Positions 20,744 through 29,812 of a DNA stretch of 35,519 bases are shown here, piece by piece. Source of the DNA: Deltaproteobacteria bacterium. Its GTDB lineage: Bacteria > Desulfobacterota > DSM-4660 > Desulfatiglandales > Desulfatiglandaceae. Position 1 is the stretch's first letter; every line of letters starts with the position of its first letter. A model generated the notes under the pieces. The model was not told where the DNA came from, ran no database searches, and saw nothing but the letters and a program-made list of their open reading frames with translations. Made by a program: the position numbers and the translations under genes. Where the stretch lies: the NCBI GenBank assembly GCA_021737785.1, contig JAIPDI010000052.1:1-35519 (forward strand), in the 5' to 3' direction.

Positions 20744-23089
20744 ATGAAAAAAGGCATTGGTTTCCTTATTTTTGAGTGTAATGTTCTTTTTTTAACAGGA
20801 ATGATCGTTTTGCTAACTGTTTCTCTTGCTTGGGGCCAAGCAAATGCAAAAACTTCAGATACCCACACTGCGATGATTGCGAAGGCCGATGTCTGGTCTT
20901 CAGGAGGACCAAATGGAGGGTATGTTACCAGTATTGCAGTTGCGCCTTCTAATACCAATATCGTCTACATTGGAACAGTCTCAGGCATGTACAAATCCAC
21001 GAATGGTGGAGAGAGTTGGTTAAAGGCAGGGCTCTACGGAATAGAGATTAATGTGATCCGCGTTGATCCCACAAACCCAAATATAGTTTGTGCCGGTGTA
21101 GGGAAAATGTCTGGTTATGAAATGGGCGCTGAAGATGGATTCTATAAAAGTACTGATGGCGGGGGTGAATGGAAAAAGAAATATGTTACGTGGGTTACTG
21201 CTTTGGCCATTGATCCACGAAACCCTGATATTATTTTCTTGGGGACGAAGACTGGGGAGATATTGAAAAGCGAAGATGGAGGAGACAGTTGGATATTAAA
21301 GCATACAGAAACAGACAGTGGTATAGGGGTTGGGATCAATTCTATCGTTGTCGACCCTGAGAATTCGTCTTATATCTATGTTGGGACCGGGATTCGTGGT
21401 TATGTTTGGCAGGGACACAGAGGATTCTTAAAAAGTGCTGATGGTGGGGAAACATGGACATCACAAGCCATAAATCCCAATTGGAATAGGGAACTTGGAT
21501 ATAGTCTTGTAATAACTCCCGCGGGTTATTCGCCGCAAACACTTTACATTATCCAAAATTTGGGCGACCTTTACAAGAGTACGGATAAAGGGGAAACGTG
21601 GACTTCTGTCGGAATATCTGTCGACCCCGACATAATTTGCGTAAACCCGATCGACCCTGATTGGCTATATGTCGCAGACAACTACGGAGATTTTCCTCTT
21701 ATCATGTATAACCCGCGTGAATCAATATGGGAAGATATCAGCGCAGGATTACCTTCAAGTAGTCTTTTTTCCAGCATCGCCATAAATCCCACTGATTCGG
21801 ATATAGTGTATGTTGGCTACGACCAGGAGAGGCTTTATACGTCCGCAGACGGGGGTACCACTTGGAATGCATCTACCATCAAGAATTCTAATATTCATGA
21901 CATAGCTATCAGCCCTACGTCCCCAAACACAGCCCTGGTAGCTATCGAGGGGGATCGCCACATTCAAAAGACAGTGGACCAAGGAGGTTCCTGGACTGAT
22001 AACGGTCCTTACAATTCCTTAAAACTAAATACTATAGCGATAGATCGAAGCAATGCATCCAAAAGGTTTATAGGTACGATAGGGGGAAATTATGGGAAGG
22101 GGGCAGGAAAAATTTACCGCACCATTGACGGCGGTGAAACCTGGAGTAGGGTTGATTCTAGAAGTTATAGTGGAACAGTCAGAGATATATGGATTCATCC
22201 CGCCAATTCCAACATTGTGCTGGCATTGAAAGAATGGCGCGAGGATTCGTTCTATATATATTACGGGGGTGTGCGACGAAGCAAAGACGGTGGTGATAAC
22301 TGGACGCAAGTAAAAAATTGGTCTTGGCCAAAGTGTCTATGTTCCGATCCCGTTAACCCAGACGTGGTCTACCTTGGTGTAGAGAGTAAAGGGTATCTAT
22401 TTAGATCAGATGATGCTGGAGAAACCTGGACAAATATAAGTCTTAGTAGTGACTGGGTAAATGCGGTTTATGATGCGGTTGTTGACTCTACCTCTAATGT
22501 TTACGCAGCAACGAGCGATGGGATTTGGAAATGGAACCAGTCGTCCTGGACTCATCTTAATTGGATGCGAGGTCAAGCGGTTACTGCTGTGGCCATAGAC
22601 CTCACGGAAGATAATAATATCCTATATGCAGGGACGGTAGATTCGGGAATTTATATATCTGCGAACGGAGGTAAAAACTGGTCGGCATTCAACAATGGGC
22701 TTGGGGTAATGAATATCACCAAAGTTGTCGTCAGCGAGACTAAACCCAAGGTTATTTACGCAGGGACCGCATACGATGGTGTGTGGAGCCGCTTAAGATC
22801 AGAGGTCCTGTTCATGTACGTCAATAAAGACGATGATACCTGCGATAACCACAGCCCGTGCTATACCTCCATCCAGGACGCCGTTAACAACGCTGACAGT
22901 GGGTCCAACATATTGATTGCTGGAGGGACCTACACTGAATTGATCACCCTAAACTATTCTAAATCGATGACTTTACAAGGTGGATGGGATATGTCCTTTC
23001 AAGATCAGAGTGGCACCACGATTTTGCGTAATGCACCCAAAGCACCGCAGGGGTCACTGACGTTACAGGAGTTGATCATCAAGCCTTAA
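20744..23089 (+). CDS. Secreted BNR/Asp-box repeat protein with shared C-terminal module
   Basis: The 781-residue exported protein has a long hydrophobic signal (FLTGMIVLLTVSLAWGQANA, residues 17-36). A beta-propeller-like region built from about eleven Asp-box repeats follows (STNGGESW, STDGGGEW, SEDGGDSW, SADGGETW, STDKGETW, SADGGTTW, TIDGGETW, SKDGGDNW, SDDAGETW, SANGGKNW and others), as in sialidase and sortilin-type propellers. No sialidase catalytic set is visible, so binding is more likely than catalysis. From residue 688 (VLFMYVNKDDD) comes a C-terminal module ending APKAPQGSLTLQELIIKP, also found at the ends of the proteins at 26072 and 28072. It looks like the beginning of a right-handed beta-helix. 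Spacing from the GGGGGAA site to ATG 20744 is about 7-8 bases. Confidence 0.88.
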   Translation: MKKGIGFLIFECNVLFLTGMIVLLTVSLAWGQANAKTSDTHTAMIAKADVWSSGGPNGGYVTSIAVAPSNTNIVYIGTVSGMYKSTNGGESWLKAGLYGIEINVIRVDPTNPNIVCAGVGKMSGYEMGAEDGFYKSTDGGGEWKKKYVTWVTALAIDPRNPDIIFLGTKTGEILKSEDGGDSWILKHTETDSGIGVGINSIVVDPENSSYIYVGTGIRGYVWQGHRGFLKSADGGETWTSQAINPNWNRELGYSLVITPAGYSPQTLYIIQNLGDLYKSTDKGETWTSVGISVDPDIICVNPIDPDWLYVADNYGDFPLIMYNPRESIWEDISAGLPSSSLFSSIAINPTDSDIVYVGYDQERLYTSADGGTTWNASTIKNSNIHDIAISPTSPNTALVAIEGDRHIQKTVDQGGSWTDNGPYNSLKLNTIAIDRSNASKRFIGTIGGNYGKGAGKIYRTIDGGETWSRVDSRSYSGTVRDIWIHPANSNIVLALKEWREDSFYIYYGGVRRSKDGGDNWTQVKNWSWPKCLCSDPVNPDVVYLGVESKGYLFRSDDAGETWTNISLSSDWVNAVYDAVVDSTSNVYAATSDGIWKWNQSSWTHLNWMRGQAVTAVAIDLTEDNNILYAGTVDSGIYISANGGKNWSAFNNGLGVMNITKVVVSETKPKVIYAGTAYDGVWSRLRSEVLFMYVNKDDDTCDNHSPCYTSIQDAVNNADSGSNILIAGGTYTELITLNYSKSMTLQGGWDMSFQDQSGTTILRNAPKAPQGSLTLQELIIKP

Positions 23090-23106
23090 TAAAGCAAGCG
23101 GTGAAC

Positions 23107-23222
23107 AGTCAAACCATGGGGAGGGACGATGAATTGACTGGATTTCTACAGAATTGATTTGTAGTGGGATAAAGCGTCAGGTGGTCAAGGACAGGGGCCA
23201 CCACCTCCCCACCAGCTTTTGA
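23107..23222 (+). ncRNA. Conserved structured 3' element, copy A
   Basis: This lies just after the stop codon of the Asp-box protein. Outer stem TGGGGAGG (23117-23124) pairs with CCTCCCCA (23204-23211); inner stem GGTGG (23180-23184) pairs with CCACC (23198-23202). The block GCGTCAGG precedes the inner stem and CCAG plus a T-run follows the outer stem. The same architecture recurs after two other genes with compensatory changes (GGCGG/CCGCC). It may be a terminator, a processed 3' RNA or a recombination site; which is unknown. Confidence 0.6.
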
Positions 23223-24927: not shown

Positions 24928-25698
24928 ATGCGTTACACGAATGGGATGGTGTTGGGCGTGCTGTTGTTGAGTGTTACTGCTGTGGCCTGGGCGGGGAGCC
25001 TGGATGATATAGGTGCTCCTACCAGTGCGGACAGCGCCATGTACACGCTGGAGGATGTTTATAACCGCCTGAACAGCAATACCCAGGCGACCAAACGGAG
25101 CGGCGCGTTTACCGAGCCGTCTGCAGGGCCTGACTCGACCGGGCACACCTTGGATCAGGTGTACGAGAAAGCAATTCCCACACAGGTGCCCAAGACCGGT
25201 CAGACCACCAGCTATCGCACCCATGATGATGGTGATCTTGAAAAAGGTGTTACGTGGCCCAGCCCGCGGTTTACGGATAATGAGGATGGTACGGTCACGG
25301 ACAACCTCACAGGCTTGATCTGGCTCAAGAACGCAAATTGCGCTGGCGGCACGGTAAACTGGAATACGGCTGTGGATTATTGCGCTGCGTTGTACGACGG
25401 CTGCACGGGTTGTTTTGGTGGGGAAGCAGATTGCGGACTCAGCGACGGCTCGGTTGCCGGAGATTGGCGTCTCCCCAATGCCAAAGAACTGCATAGCCTG
25501 ATCGATTTTGGGCAATACAATCCTGCGCTGCCTTCGGGAAATCCCTTTACGGGCGTGCAGTCGTACCACTACTGGACGAGTTCGACGTACGGGGACGATA
25601 CTGACTACGCGTGGTACGTGCACCTGTACTATGGCCGCGTCTACTGCGACGTTAAGACCCGCACATACTACGTGTGGCCTGTTCGCGGAGGACAATAG
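24928..25698 (+). CDS. DUF1566 (Lcl) secreted protein, probable DGR variable protein
   Basis: The 256-residue exported protein has a signal (MVLGVLLLSVTAVAWAGS). An N-terminal part follows in the style MYTLEDVYNRLNSNTQATKRSGAFTEPSAGPDSTGHTLDQVYEK, then a DUF1566 C-type-lectin-like domain (FTDNEDGTVTDNLTGLIWLKNANC, WRLPNAKELHSLIDF, YWTSST). It ends YVWPVRGGQ, the usual last strand of this domain. From codon 213 to 248 about 18 codons are NAY, CRY, TRC or similar (tac, cac, tgc, gac, cgc, tat), all reachable from AAC or AAT by changes at the two adenines. That is the signature of adenine-directed mutagenesis by diversity-generating retroelements, whose targets often are DUF1566 proteins. ATG 24928 follows GGAGGG; ATG 24916 is too early. 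Confidence 0.85.
   Translation: MRYTNGMVLGVLLLSVTAVAWAGSLDDIGAPTSADSAMYTLEDVYNRLNSNTQATKRSGAFTEPSAGPDSTGHTLDQVYEKAIPTQVPKTGQTTSYRTHDDGDLEKGVTWPSPRFTDNEDGTVTDNLTGLIWLKNANCAGGTVNWNTAVDYCAALYDGCTGCFGGEADCGLSDGSVAGDWRLPNAKELHSLIDFGQYNPALPSGNPFTGVQSYHYWTSSTYGDDTDYAWYVHLYYGRVYCDVKTRTYYVWPVRGGQ
25564..25695 (+). other. Probable DGR variable region (VR)
   Basis: This is the last 44 codons of the DUF1566 gene. Fixed codons (tgg acg agt tcg acg; gcg tgg; gtg tgg cct gtt cgc) alternate with many codons ending in C or T whose first two bases vary among TA, CA, GA, TG and CG, as if derived from AAC/AAT. The constant GC-rich end (cctgttcgcggagga) fits an initiation-of-homology segment. No template repeat was found by eye in the window. 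Confidence 0.65.
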
Positions 25699-25734
25699 AA
25701 GCTTTGATTCTTGGATTATTTGACGGGGGGTGCA

Positions 25735-25748
25735 AGGGGGCTCCCCCT
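25735..25748 (+). promoter_or_regulatory. GC hairpin downstream of the variable region
   Basis: AGGGG, loop GCTC, CCCCT forms a tight hairpin 37 bases after the stop codon. In the Bordetella phage DGR a GC-rich hairpin with a 4-base loop just downstream of the variable region promotes retrohoming, and this one has that position and form. A second mini-hairpin (TGCC CGC GGCA) with seven T's follows (25748-25765), so a transcription attenuator before the MutS-like gene is an alternative. Confidence 0.5.
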
Positions 25749-25778
25749 GCCCGCGGCATTTTTTTGAGGCGAGAAGAC

Positions 25779-26048
25779 ATGGTGTTCTCTGAAAAACTGA
25801 CATCCCGCTACGGTGAGCTGAAACACCTGGCGGGTGATTCCATTTTGCTGATGCAGGTGGGCGCCTTTATGCAGGTCATGGATGAAGATGCCAGGACGGT
25901 ATCCAGTGTTACCGGTTTGAAACTTCAAATGGCAGGGGACGTGGATGCGCCGGTTGTCATCGGAGGCTTTCCTTTGTCAGGGATTGACGCGTATGTGGGG
26001 AAACTGGTGCGTGCATTGGTGTGCCGCTGGGCATGTACTCAGGCGTAA
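25779..26048 (+). CDS. Small MutS domain I-like protein (DGR accessory, MSL type)
   Basis: The 89-residue frame resembles the mismatch-recognition domain I of MutS: KLTSRYGELKHLAGDSILLMQVGAFMQVMDEDARTVSSVTGLKL corresponds to the LLFRxGDFYExFxxDA stretch, and IGGFPLSGIDAYVGKLVRA to the GxPxHxxxxYxxKL stretch. Stand-alone MutS-like (MSL) genes are reported as accessory genes beside DGR variable-protein genes, which fits the DUF1566 gene directly upstream. After GKLVRA the sequence LVCRWACTQA departs from the expected GxxVAI.xQ, so the end may be frame-damaged. ATG 25779 has a weak GAGGCGAGAAG site. Confidence 0.65.
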   Translation: MVFSEKLTSRYGELKHLAGDSILLMQVGAFMQVMDEDARTVSSVTGLKLQMAGDVDAPVVIGGFPLSGIDAYVGKLVRALVCRWACTQA

Positions 26049-26071
26049 CGTCGAACCAAAGGAGATCGAAA

Positions 26072-27841
26072 ATGAAGAGGAATAAAGGAACTATCATTGT
26101 GCGCTCAGCAATCATGGGACTGATTTGTCTTCTCCTTTTTGGTGTGCAGATCGTGTGGGCAGGCAATATCGACGCGACCTACAAATACGCCTGGGGCGAG
26201 AATGCAGGCTGGCACAACTGGCGGTCCACCAATGCCCAGGCCACGGTGGAAGCGACCTATTTGACGGGCTATGTATGGGCGGAAAACATCGGATGGATCA
26301 AGCTGGGCGTGGACGCCGCGGGCCCTTATGACAATACCGATGAGACCGATTGGGGCGTGAATAAGGACGGCTCGGGCAACCTTTCTGGCTATGCCTGGAG
26401 TGAGAATGTAGGCTGGATCAACTTCAATCCAACAAATGGCGGGGTGACCATCAGCACCAGCACCAACAAGTTCGATGGCTATGCCTGGGGCGAACGGATT
26501 GGCTGGATCCATTTCCAGAACGACTCTCCCGAATACTATGTAATGCAGGAATTAATAATTGCCCCCGCTGTAACCACCGAGGAGGTCACCGGTGTCGGCA
26601 CTGCCACAGCGATCGGTAACGGTACTATCACCGACCTCGGTTCACCCGATCCCACGGCCCACGGCGTCTGCTGGAACACCAGCGGAAATCCGAATGCTGA
26701 CGATGACGATTGCACCGACGAAGGCCTGGCTTCTACAATCGGTTCATTTACCTCAAACATCACCGGCCTGAGTGCCGGCACGACCTACTATGTGCGGGCC
26801 TATGCCACCAATACGGCAGGTACAAGTTACGGGGAACAAGTGGAATTCAAGACCCAGGTTGTACTGACCATGTCGGCATTCCCCGCTGCCAGCGGCACCA
26901 CAGAGCCTCCTGCAGGGTCGACCACCAACGTGGATGCTGGAGAGGCCCAAAATATCACGGCCTCGGCCGCCCCAGGCTACCACTTTGATAACTGGACAGC
27001 AGACCCGGCGGAAAACGCGGATTTTGATAACGCGACCGTCGCATTTACCACCGTCACCCTAACGGGATCGGCCACGGTCACCGCCAATTTTGCCATCAAC
27101 ACCTACACCCTGACCACGGCTGCGAATCCGGTTGAGAGCGGCACTGTGGTCAAGGACCCTGATAAGGCCAATTACGAGCACGGCGAGGAGGTGCAGGTCA
27201 CAGCTACGGCCGAGGCGGGCTATACCTTTACCGGTTGGACCGGGGACCTGAGCGGAACCAACAATCCGGCCAGCCTGGCCATGGACGGGGACAAGACCGT
27301 CACTGCCAACTTCGCGGCCACTTACACTGTGACCTATGACGGCAATGGGAACACCGGGGGAGCCCCACCCGAGGACGGGAGTGCCTACCAGGAAGGTACT
27401 GAAGTGACGGTTCTGGACGCGGGCTCCCTGGTCAAGACTGGCTATACCTTCGACAATTGGAACACGGCTTCGGACGGGGGCGGAACCCCATATGCCCCTG
27501 GGGAAACGTTCAGCATGCCAGGGGCTAACGTCACGCTGTACGCCCAGTGGACAGCTGCTTCTACCCGATATGTGTGCAGGGATGGGTATTGCGGGGGCAA
27601 GACACCGTGTGACATGACAATTCAGCAGGCCATCGAGGCAGCGGACACCGGGACGGTCATACTGATCGCTGATGGCACGTACGATGAAACCATCAGTCTT
27701 AACGCAGATAAGGTTCTGACCCTCCAGGGCGGGTGGGACGCGTCATTTGGAAGCCAGACCGGGACTACCACATTGAAAGGTGCGCCCAAGGCCCCGCAGG
27801 GGTCTCTGACGTTGCAGGAGTTGGTCATTAAGCCTGAATAA
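26072..27841 (+). CDS. Secreted multi-repeat protein with shared C-terminal module
   Basis: The 589-residue protein has a signal peptide (IVRSAIMGLICLLLFGVQIVWAG). Four GYxWxExxGWIxF repeats follow (YAWGENAGWHNW, YVWAENIGWIKL, YAWSENVGWINF, YAWGERIGWIHF), then a fibronectin-like segment (ITGLSAGTTYYVRAYATNTAGTSYGE) and two InlB-type bacterial repeats (GYHFDNWTADPAENADF, GYTFTGWTGDLSG). A Listeria-Bacteroides repeat (TYDGNGNTGG to GANVTLYAQWT) is next. From residue 496 it carries the same C-terminal module as its neighbours, ending APKAPQGSLTLQELVIKPE. Such composition suggests a surface adhesin or matrix protein. ATG 26072 has AGGAG 7 bases upstream; the frame's earlier ATG at 26021 overlaps the preceding gene. 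Confidence 0.85.
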   Translation: MKRNKGTIIVRSAIMGLICLLLFGVQIVWAGNIDATYKYAWGENAGWHNWRSTNAQATVEATYLTGYVWAENIGWIKLGVDAAGPYDNTDETDWGVNKDGSGNLSGYAWSENVGWINFNPTNGGVTISTSTNKFDGYAWGERIGWIHFQNDSPEYYVMQELIIAPAVTTEEVTGVGTATAIGNGTITDLGSPDPTAHGVCWNTSGNPNADDDDCTDEGLASTIGSFTSNITGLSAGTTYYVRAYATNTAGTSYGEQVEFKTQVVLTMSAFPAASGTTEPPAGSTTNVDAGEAQNITASAAPGYHFDNWTADPAENADFDNATVAFTTVTLTGSATVTANFAINTYTLTTAANPVESGTVVKDPDKANYEHGEEVQVTATAEAGYTFTGWTGDLSGTNNPASLAMDGDKTVTANFAATYTVTYDGNGNTGGAPPEDGSAYQEGTEVTVLDAGSLVKTGYTFDNWNTASDGGGTPYAPGETFSMPGANVTLYAQWTAASTRYVCRDGYCGGKTPCDMTIQQAIEAADTGTVILIADGTYDETISLNADKVLTLQGGWDASFGSQTGTTTLKGAPKAPQGSLTLQELVIKPE

Positions 27842-27851
27842 GGCCAGGGAT

Positions 27852-27975
27852 GAACAGTCAAATCATGGGGAGGGACGGGGGTGAATTTTTATGCCTTCGG
27901 GATAGGCCCGCAGGCAGACTAAATGAAACCGTCAGGCGGGCCATAGCCGGGGCCGCCACCTCCCAGCCAGTTTTA
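27852..27975 (+). ncRNA. Conserved structured 3' element, copy B
   Basis: Begins with the shared TGAACAGTCAAA and GGGGAGGGAC. Outer stem GGGAGG (27868-27873) pairs with CCTCCC (27959-27964); inner stem GGCGG (27935-27939) pairs with CCGCC (27953-27957). GTCAGG precedes the inner stem and CCAGTTTT closes the element, as in copies A and C. The central loop is unrelated in sequence to the other copies. Confidence 0.6.
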
Positions 27976-28071: not shown

Positions 28072-29679
28072 ATGAGATTCATACATGCAAGAGCAGGCAA
28101 ATTGCTATGCGTAGCCCTTTGGTCTTTTGTCTTGTGTATCGCTTTTAATTTTACATATGCGTACGCATATCCGGCGCCGAAATTTCAGAGAGCGATGGTT
28201 TTTTCTATGAAACAATCAGACGGCACAATTTTAAGCATATTTTTCGCAGTTATCAGCGGGCCTTCTCCAGAGGATGTGACCTCTTTTACCGCCACCGGCC
28301 CATCCGGGACCTATAACCTAAACCCTTCGCGCTCTTTTCAGCAATATGGACTTTATTATGTCTATGGAGAACAAGGCGTTCTGGAGGATGGCACCTACAC
28401 CCTGACGGTGACCGATAGTGCGGGCAGATCCGCCTCCGTGTCTCGGGACTTCACTTATGATGGCAGTGTGCCTAAACCAACCAATCTGGATCCGGCAAAC
28501 GAGAGCTATACAGAAGGTACGACGCCCACCTTGAGCTTTTCACCTGTTGAAGGAGACTACATCTATCAGGTAATTATTTCTGATTATGATTCTAAAGCGA
28601 TCTGGTACATCAGCCCCATGATGACAACCCCTTCTTTCACAGTGCCGGAGGGGATGTTGCAACGCAATACGGCTTACTCCTGGGAGGCTCGGATTTATGA
28701 TGCCTCGGGCCGGAACTGCAGTCAAAGCCAGCCTGTTTTTTACACCGACACAAAGACTGCACCCGAAATAATGTTCAGGGGTGTCATGTCGTTTCCTACT
28801 GATTCAAATTTTCTAAATTTTCTTTATGCACAGGGCAGTCACGTGGCCCCTTGGGATATCGACTATTTTCACGCCACAGGACCTGATAACACGGTATATG
28901 ATCTGAACAGGCGCGCTTATCAGTTCACATTTTCCTCTTATAACGCAAACATCACTGCGTATGATCCACCGGCATCAGTTCCCGACGGCACTTACACCTT
29001 TGAAATCAAGGACGACCAGGGTCGAACCAACTCCGATACGTGCACCTATACCTACAATCCTGTCCCTGACTTTGTAGAAGATTCCCGGCTCCCGGCTGAC
29101 AATGCCTACCTGGATACGGACAAACCAACATTCAGTTGGTCCAGAGTAGAGGGGGATACCGGCAATGGGGCTTATCTATACAGTATACGCATCGTGGATT
29201 ACAGTACGGGAGTTCGGTTTTTTGACTCACCTCAGAGTACCGAGACGTCCTTTACACCCTCTGAATCGCTGAACCTCCCAAGGGGAAGCTCCTACAAGTG
29301 GCGTGTCAATGTGATTGATAACAATGGCAATAACTACAGAACTTCTTCTTCGCCTACATTCCGGACACTAACGTTTAATCCTGAATCAGCCCCATCAGTT
29401 CTCTATGTGAGTAACACCGATGACACATGTAATGGAAACGATCCCTGTTACACGTCTATCCAGGATGCGATAGACTACGCAGGAGAAAACGCTTCCATAC
29501 GATTGGCTGAGGGAACCTACAACGAAATCTTTGAGTTATACCTACCGAAATCCATAACGTTAAAAGGGGGATGGGATATATCCTTTGAGAATCAAACTGC
29601 TACAACTACCTTAAGAAGTGCGCCCAAAGCACCGCAGGGGTCGCTGACGTTACAGGAGTTGATAATCAAGCCGGAATAG
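28072..29679 (+). CDS. Secreted Ig/FN3-like protein with shared C-terminal module
   Basis: The 535-residue exported protein starts with a signal (LCVALWSFVLCIAFNFTYAYAYPAP). Two similar units follow, each with a beta-sandwich domain (DGTYTLTVTDSAGRSASVSRDFTYD; DGTYTFEIKDDQGRTNSDTCTYTY) and a domain with PTLSFSPVEGDYIYQVIISD or PTFSWSRVEGD and YSWEARIYD or YKWRVNVID, typical of FN3-like carbohydrate- or surface-binding proteins. From about residue 443 (VLYVSNTDDTC) it has the same C-terminal module as the genes at 20744 and 26072, ending APKAPQGSLTLQELIIKPE. AGGAGG lies 6 bases before ATG 28072. The role is unknown; surface binding is the likely general role. Confidence 0.85.
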   Translation: MRFIHARAGKLLCVALWSFVLCIAFNFTYAYAYPAPKFQRAMVFSMKQSDGTILSIFFAVISGPSPEDVTSFTATGPSGTYNLNPSRSFQQYGLYYVYGEQGVLEDGTYTLTVTDSAGRSASVSRDFTYDGSVPKPTNLDPANESYTEGTTPTLSFSPVEGDYIYQVIISDYDSKAIWYISPMMTTPSFTVPEGMLQRNTAYSWEARIYDASGRNCSQSQPVFYTDTKTAPEIMFRGVMSFPTDSNFLNFLYAQGSHVAPWDIDYFHATGPDNTVYDLNRRAYQFTFSSYNANITAYDPPASVPDGTYTFEIKDDQGRTNSDTCTYTYNPVPDFVEDSRLPADNAYLDTDKPTFSWSRVEGDTGNGAYLYSIRIVDYSTGVRFFDSPQSTETSFTPSESLNLPRGSSYKWRVNVIDNNGNNYRTSSSPTFRTLTFNPESAPSVLYVSNTDDTCNGNDPCYTSIQDAIDYAGENASIRLAEGTYNEIFELYLPKSITLKGGWDISFENQTATTTLRSAPKAPQGSLTLQELIIKPE

Positions 29680-29683
29680 AATC

Positions 29684-29812
29684 CTGAACAGCCAAGTTAT
29701 GGGGAGGGACACTACGGATTTCATGGACTGTTTGCAGGATCGGCCTTCAAACAGAATTCAAAGCGTCAGGCGGGTCAACGGCACGGATCCGCCACCTCCC
29801 CGCCAGTTTCGA
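29684..29812 (+). ncRNA. Conserved structured 3' element, copy C
   Basis: Third copy of the element, directly after the stop of the gene at 28072. Outer stem GGGGAGG (29701-29707) pairs with CCTCCCC (29795-29801); inner stem GGCGG (29769-29773) pairs with CCGCC (29789-29793). AAAGCGTCAGGCGGGTCAA matches copy A except for the compensated T-to-C change in the stem. CCAGTTTC closes it. Confidence 0.6.

Follow-up and report, generated by a model that had tools for sequence, protein, structure and literature searches.

Diversity-generating retroelements (DGRs) rewrite chosen adenines of a gene, yielding new binding surfaces. The locus at 24928-26048 raises the question of whether a gene with the appearance of a DGR target, and with neither a reverse transcriptase (RT) nor a template repeat (TR) beside it, was shaped by such an element and, if so, whether it is still being rewritten from elsewhere or has been left stranded. 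Elements of this kind are already known; the locus described here is a new, well-marked orphan.

Layout of the locus

The window, i.e., the whole stretch of DNA analysed, is the entire contig C52, 35.5 kb long, of a genome that is not closed and totals 5.33 Mb over 96 contigs. The initial annotation had read a DUF1566 protein, a GC hairpin and a MutS-like gene from its letters, and all three are in place on the forward strand as a CDS (24928..25698), an inverted repeat (25735-25748) and an ORF (25779..26048). The CDS, the putative target (variable protein) gene, encodes 256 aa with a C-terminal Lcl_C/DUF1566 domain (Pfam PF07603, E 6.7e-31), placed at 25288..25686 (+) by a family search of the genome itself. 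Lcl_C/DUF1566 has been described as the commonest Pfam domain among DGR targets (PMC6642488). The target domain is of a type used by DGRs, and the gene closes with a variable region (VR) of 48 codons. A hydrophobic, signal-peptide-like N-terminus suggests that the protein is secreted. No PDB homologue of the target was found by sequence, and an AlphaFold model from a four-sequence alignment (pLDDT 31.5) was too low in confidence for fold comparison.

The VR (25552..25695, +) was delimited by gapless alignment to the template of a reference element, L050, and its 18 Asn-derived codons by the Asn positions of this template and that of a second element, L087. It ends in YVWPVRGGQ (25669..25695, +), an invariant 3' end common to templates or VRs of L050, L087 (template), G130 and L053, where the IMH of a DGR would lie. 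The GC hairpin (25732..25750, +) follows 33 nt past the stop codon, with the core inverted repeat AGGGG-GCTC-CCCCT, and then the MutS-like ORF, a stand-alone MutS domain I-like (MSL) gene of 89 aa (PF01624, E 1.6e-7). Judging from L050 and from L054, which is syntenic in a congener, avd, template and RT would follow at a junction in 26016..26071 (no strand assigned). The next gene, InlB-like and with a KYAWSENAGW repeat, starts at 26072. Three neighbouring predicted surface proteins, at 20744-23089, 26072-27841 and 28072-29679, have in common a conserved C-terminal stretch ending APKAPQGSLTLQEL[IV]IKP; the similar segments lie at 22968-23128, 27717-27877 and 29555-29715 (also 23171-23219 and 27926-27974), and the DNA similarity extends beyond the stop codons.

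Sequence cues and reference elements

Taken alone, neither codon count nor hairpin proves a DGR. Codons of the NNC/NNT kind are not enriched in the VR (28/45 against 124/211 in the rest of the gene, p=0.40), and the window hairpin folds no better than dinucleotide shuffles (z=-0.49); both were rejected as stand-alone evidence on these grounds. Tyr is enriched in the VR (10/45 against 8/211, p=1.6e-4). The cues that the initial annotation had pointed to fail by themselves and gain their meaning through comparison with real templates and homologues.

Two reference elements made this comparison possible. L050, on an Anaerolineales MAG contig (SOHZ01000664), was found by searching with the MutS-like protein of the window. 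It consists, in this order, of a MutS-like gene (2-346), Avd (bAvd family, 333-785), TR (about 1102-1246) and an RT with the motif GLPIGNLTSQ; its own target lies beyond the contig end. The MSL proteins of L050 and the window are 70% identical and the window VR follows the L050 template codon by codon, whereas L050 has Avd, template, RT and a longer MSL. L087 (contig C81 of genome G063, from the same family as the window genome) was found by searching the class of the window with the L050 RT, and encodes an Lcl_C target, Avd, template and RT consecutively. Its VR differs from its own template at 22/49 adenines and at 4/77 other bases, the expected DGR pattern. L087 has the same target domain as the window and a closely similar template; unlike the window, it has RT, Avd and template, its Avd follows the target without an intervening MSL, we saw no GC hairpin, and its VR is frameshifted near the end.

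The variable region against the templates

The 48 window codons from 25552 align without a gap to the L050 template GVQSNNYWSSTTNANNTSNAWNVNMNDGNVNANNKTNTNYVWPVRGGE, and all 15 of its Asn codons are altered in the window VR. The L087 template adds three, giving 18 Asn-derived codons, which start at 25564, 25567, 25588, 25594, 25597, 25603, 25606, 25615 and 25621 in the first half and at 25627, 25630, 25636, 25642, 25645, 25648, 25651, 25660 and 25666 (all +) in the second. All are NNC (15) or NNT (3), which bears out the early count of about 18 codons resembling mutated AAC or AAT.

Against the L050 template, the Asn codons changed at 18/30 sites of positions 1 and 2 and at 1/15 of position 3 (p=5.5e-4), whereas the fixed codons changed at 7/33, 3/33 and 13/33 sites of positions 1, 2 and 3, respectively, i.e., by the usual third-base drift. 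Change at positions 1 and 2 with position 3 kept is the reverse of ordinary divergence, which argues against an ordinary Lcl_C C-terminus. Outside template adenines, the window VR is 78% identical to the L050 template, compared with 54-67% for the four ordinary Lcl_C copies that this genome carries on C67 and C1. Some 22% of the non-A positions also differ between the window and the templates, which are heterologous (from a different phylum or genus), and the overall contrast between A and non-A sites, treated as independent here as in the other VR statistics, is modest (p=0.009 against L050, 0.001 against L087). The mark by which a DGR target is judged, changes at template adenines with fixed codons between them, was seen against heterologous templates only.

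The 18 codons now specify Tyr (8), Asp (4), His (2), Arg (2), Cys (1) and Val (1). The reconstituted BPP-1 RT turns AAC mostly into Tyr, Ser and Asp (PMC12875486), and the residues gained in the window, mostly Tyr and Asp, are in line with such a bias at AAC. The first adenine has changed in 18/18 codons and the second in 4/18. This lopsidedness exceeds the bias known for the RT and speaks against the preferred reading; selection probably contributed to it as well.

The downstream hairpin

An inverted repeat occupies the homologous place after the target in four other loci (L051, L053, the congener G024 and a paralog on C18 of the same genome), with which the window repeat was aligned. That of L051 has a 9-bp stem and a 4-nt loop (z -4.14); the window hairpin, with its GCTC loop, is homologous to these repeats but shortened and bulged. 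The DGR of BPP-1 requires a hairpin downstream of the VR (PMC3240598). In both BPP-1 and the window, the VR lies at the 3' end of the gene, with an inverted repeat with a 4-nt loop within about 34 nt; in the window, however, the stem is shorter or bulged, the GCTC loop does not fit GRNA, and no RT, Avd or template was found. Judged by their homologues, the VR codons are genuine DGR anatomy and the hairpin probably is too.

The C18 paralog (L017:1342-2030) is a second Lcl_C gene, situated by a contig end and an integrase fragment, with a similar inverted repeat and a T-run downstream, and may be another relic DGR target.

The MutS-like gene

MSL, a stand-alone MutS domain I (PF01624), is presented as a known DGR accessory in a passage of PMC10053308 that cites its ref. 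12. The window gene resembles known DGR MSLs in being such a domain beside a DGR target and differs in being truncated and without an RT. The match to MutS_I covers 4-75 of 113 positions in the window and 8-92 of 113 in L050, so the window MSL seems to have lost its C-terminal part; homology to other MSLs stops near 26015. Several unrelated genomes have a MutS-like gene downstream of an Lcl_C target, and in L050 such a gene adjoins, and precedes, Avd and RT, in agreement with the accessory role first proposed for the window gene. Clear MSLs outside full-length MutS are rare, being found in 3/395 genomes sampled from the phylum of the window and 1/400 from that of L050. MutS-like matches in phage and plasmid records were set aside as MutS_I-like C-termini of proteins of ~800 aa or an annotated mutS, with no DGR seen.

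In the five aligned MSLs (the window, L050-L053), Phe-Met-Gln stands without exception where MutS has Phe-X-Glu, the motif by which it recognises mismatches. Replacement of this Glu by Gln in MutS abolishes discrimination between mismatched and matched DNA (PMC3848065).

Variation between relatives

The syntenic gene of the congener G024 (L054, contig C310) is followed by a relative of the next gene of the window. Between the two genomes, positions 1 and 2 of the 15 Asn codons agree at 10/30 sites, the scaffold at 177/240 (p=1.8e-5); at position 3 these codons are no different from the scaffold. Excess variation is seen at the predicted positions, between species rather than between strains. 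The G024 locus is a pseudogene: the start of the target is broken and the MSL is interrupted by inserted sequence.

In genome G130, which belongs to a different family within the phylum, the VRs of two adjacent targets are 88% identical and their scaffolds 63%, and 10/11 VR differences fall at template adenines, a sequence pattern that marks DGR action at a target-plus-MSL locus. No RT lies beside these targets on their 3.6-kb contig, and the two RTs detected in this genome (67% complete) are not of the DGR type. The RVT_1 profile found no RT in the genomes of G024 and L053.

Two further loci were noted. The genome that contains L051 has a second degenerate DGR (L149:3299-7540, G086:C13), in which the gene for a large NACHT-like/FGE-sulfatase-like protein precedes an ORF resembling Avd and a truncated RT ORF. 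A 77-kb IMG/VR viral contig encodes an Lcl_C protein ending IYVWPVRGGQ, as does that of the window (L167:112-1176), and a phage route for such targets is possible. Neither the target nor the MSL had relatives in viral scans.

The missing machinery

The window had been described as devoid of RT and template, and the search was extended to the whole genome, rated 100% complete with 3.1% contamination. The RVT_1 profile found only an RT of group II intron type on C19, rejected as the missing DGR RT for its TPQGG motif and broken frame, and the L050 RT as query found no match. A template-compatible pattern, in which each VR base is kept or is A and up to three mismatches are allowed, matched nothing but the VR, whether run on the window or on the full genome; blastn of the assembly found no template repeat either. 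The C18 paralog was rejected as a template source, being another Lcl_C gene with 65% identical DNA and a hairpin remnant of its own. Avd (bAvd) gave no match in the genome, in a search without a positive control. Of a complete cis-acting DGR, the DGR-type RT and the template repeat are thus absent from the assembly, which is not closed.

Origin and fate of the locus

The proposal of an orphan DGR target is upheld by the colinearity with a template, the changes specific to Asn codons, the homologous hairpins in relatives and the MSL within the L050 cassette. The target gene is probably a stranded, once hypervariable DGR target. In our reading, which we hold to be likely, target, hairpin and MSL at 24928-26048 make up the 5' half of a DGR cassette that has lost its avd-TR-RT part, leaving the target frozen. 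An ancestor would have held the whole cassette, and its RT would have copied the template RNA with errors at adenines. With the help of the hairpin, the cDNA would have overwritten the terminal part of the gene as far as the invariant 3' end, producing different versions of a secreted domain that probably binds a ligand. Loss of avd, TR and RT would have followed, with one selected Tyr/Asp-rich face left frozen and the hairpin and MSL decaying.

The initial annotation had placed diversification in trans and a fossil side by side. The fossil is favoured because searches of a genome rated as fully complete turned up neither a DGR RT nor an Avd or a template, and because the MSL is truncated, the hairpin decayed and the congener locus a pseudogene; against decay, the target ORF and the truncated MSL ORF are both still open. 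Trans action, possible but unsupported, would mean that the target is a remote one, still diversified by a DGR that the assembly lacks, borne on a plasmid, a phage or a piece of the chromosome. The open ORFs, and the third positions of the Asn codons that have hardly drifted from the L050 template, would fit such service, as would the phage-borne target with the same VR end and the G130 targets, whose differences fall at adenines with no RT adjoining. In Thiohalocapsa PB-PSB1, too, there are degenerate and remote loci where part of the machinery is missing beside the target; some of these targets are diversified in trans, and others have no matching template elsewhere (PMC10907252). That genome, however, has several DGR RTs, whereas none was found in that of the window. 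G130 is only 67% complete, and its RT may be merely unassembled. Furthermore, the candidate target on C18 lacks the non-A sequence of the window (VR 62% identical overall), so a single template does not seem to serve both. With the hairpin decayed and neither DGR RT nor template in a genome rated complete, we regard diversification in trans as unlikely.

A broader proposal is that RT-less target-hairpin-MSL modules, rather than being dead remnants, are target cassettes that move about and are diversified in trans by a DGR lying far off or outside the chromosome, and that MSL, through its invariant Phe-X-Gln, acts as a non-discriminating DNA clamp shielding the mutated cDNA:VR heteroduplex from mismatch repair; we consider this very unlikely. 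That the target is an ordinary Lcl_C protein whose C-terminus resembles DGR VRs by nature, with MutS-like ORF and hairpin coincidental, could appeal to the unenriched NNY codons, the hairpin not significant alone and the ordinary copies, which also differ from the L050 template at 10-13 of 13-15 Asn codons, and is nevertheless highly improbable in view of the conserved third positions beside changing first and second ones, the lower non-A identity of those copies, and the MutS-like gene behind Lcl_C targets in unrelated genomes and next to Avd and RT in L050.

The preferred reading, a stranded 5' half of a cassette, bears on how such elements are recognised. A DGR-made VR can be told from heterologous templates and codon-position statistics even without RT and template, and searches that begin with the RT miss such orphan targets. 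The invariant Phe-X-Gln is a testable lead on the role of MSL, a poorly understood accessory. RT-less target-plus-MSL loci are added here in several lineages (the window, its congener G024 and Thermoanaerobaculales L053), which opens to study the fate of once hypervariable receptors after the loss of their RT.
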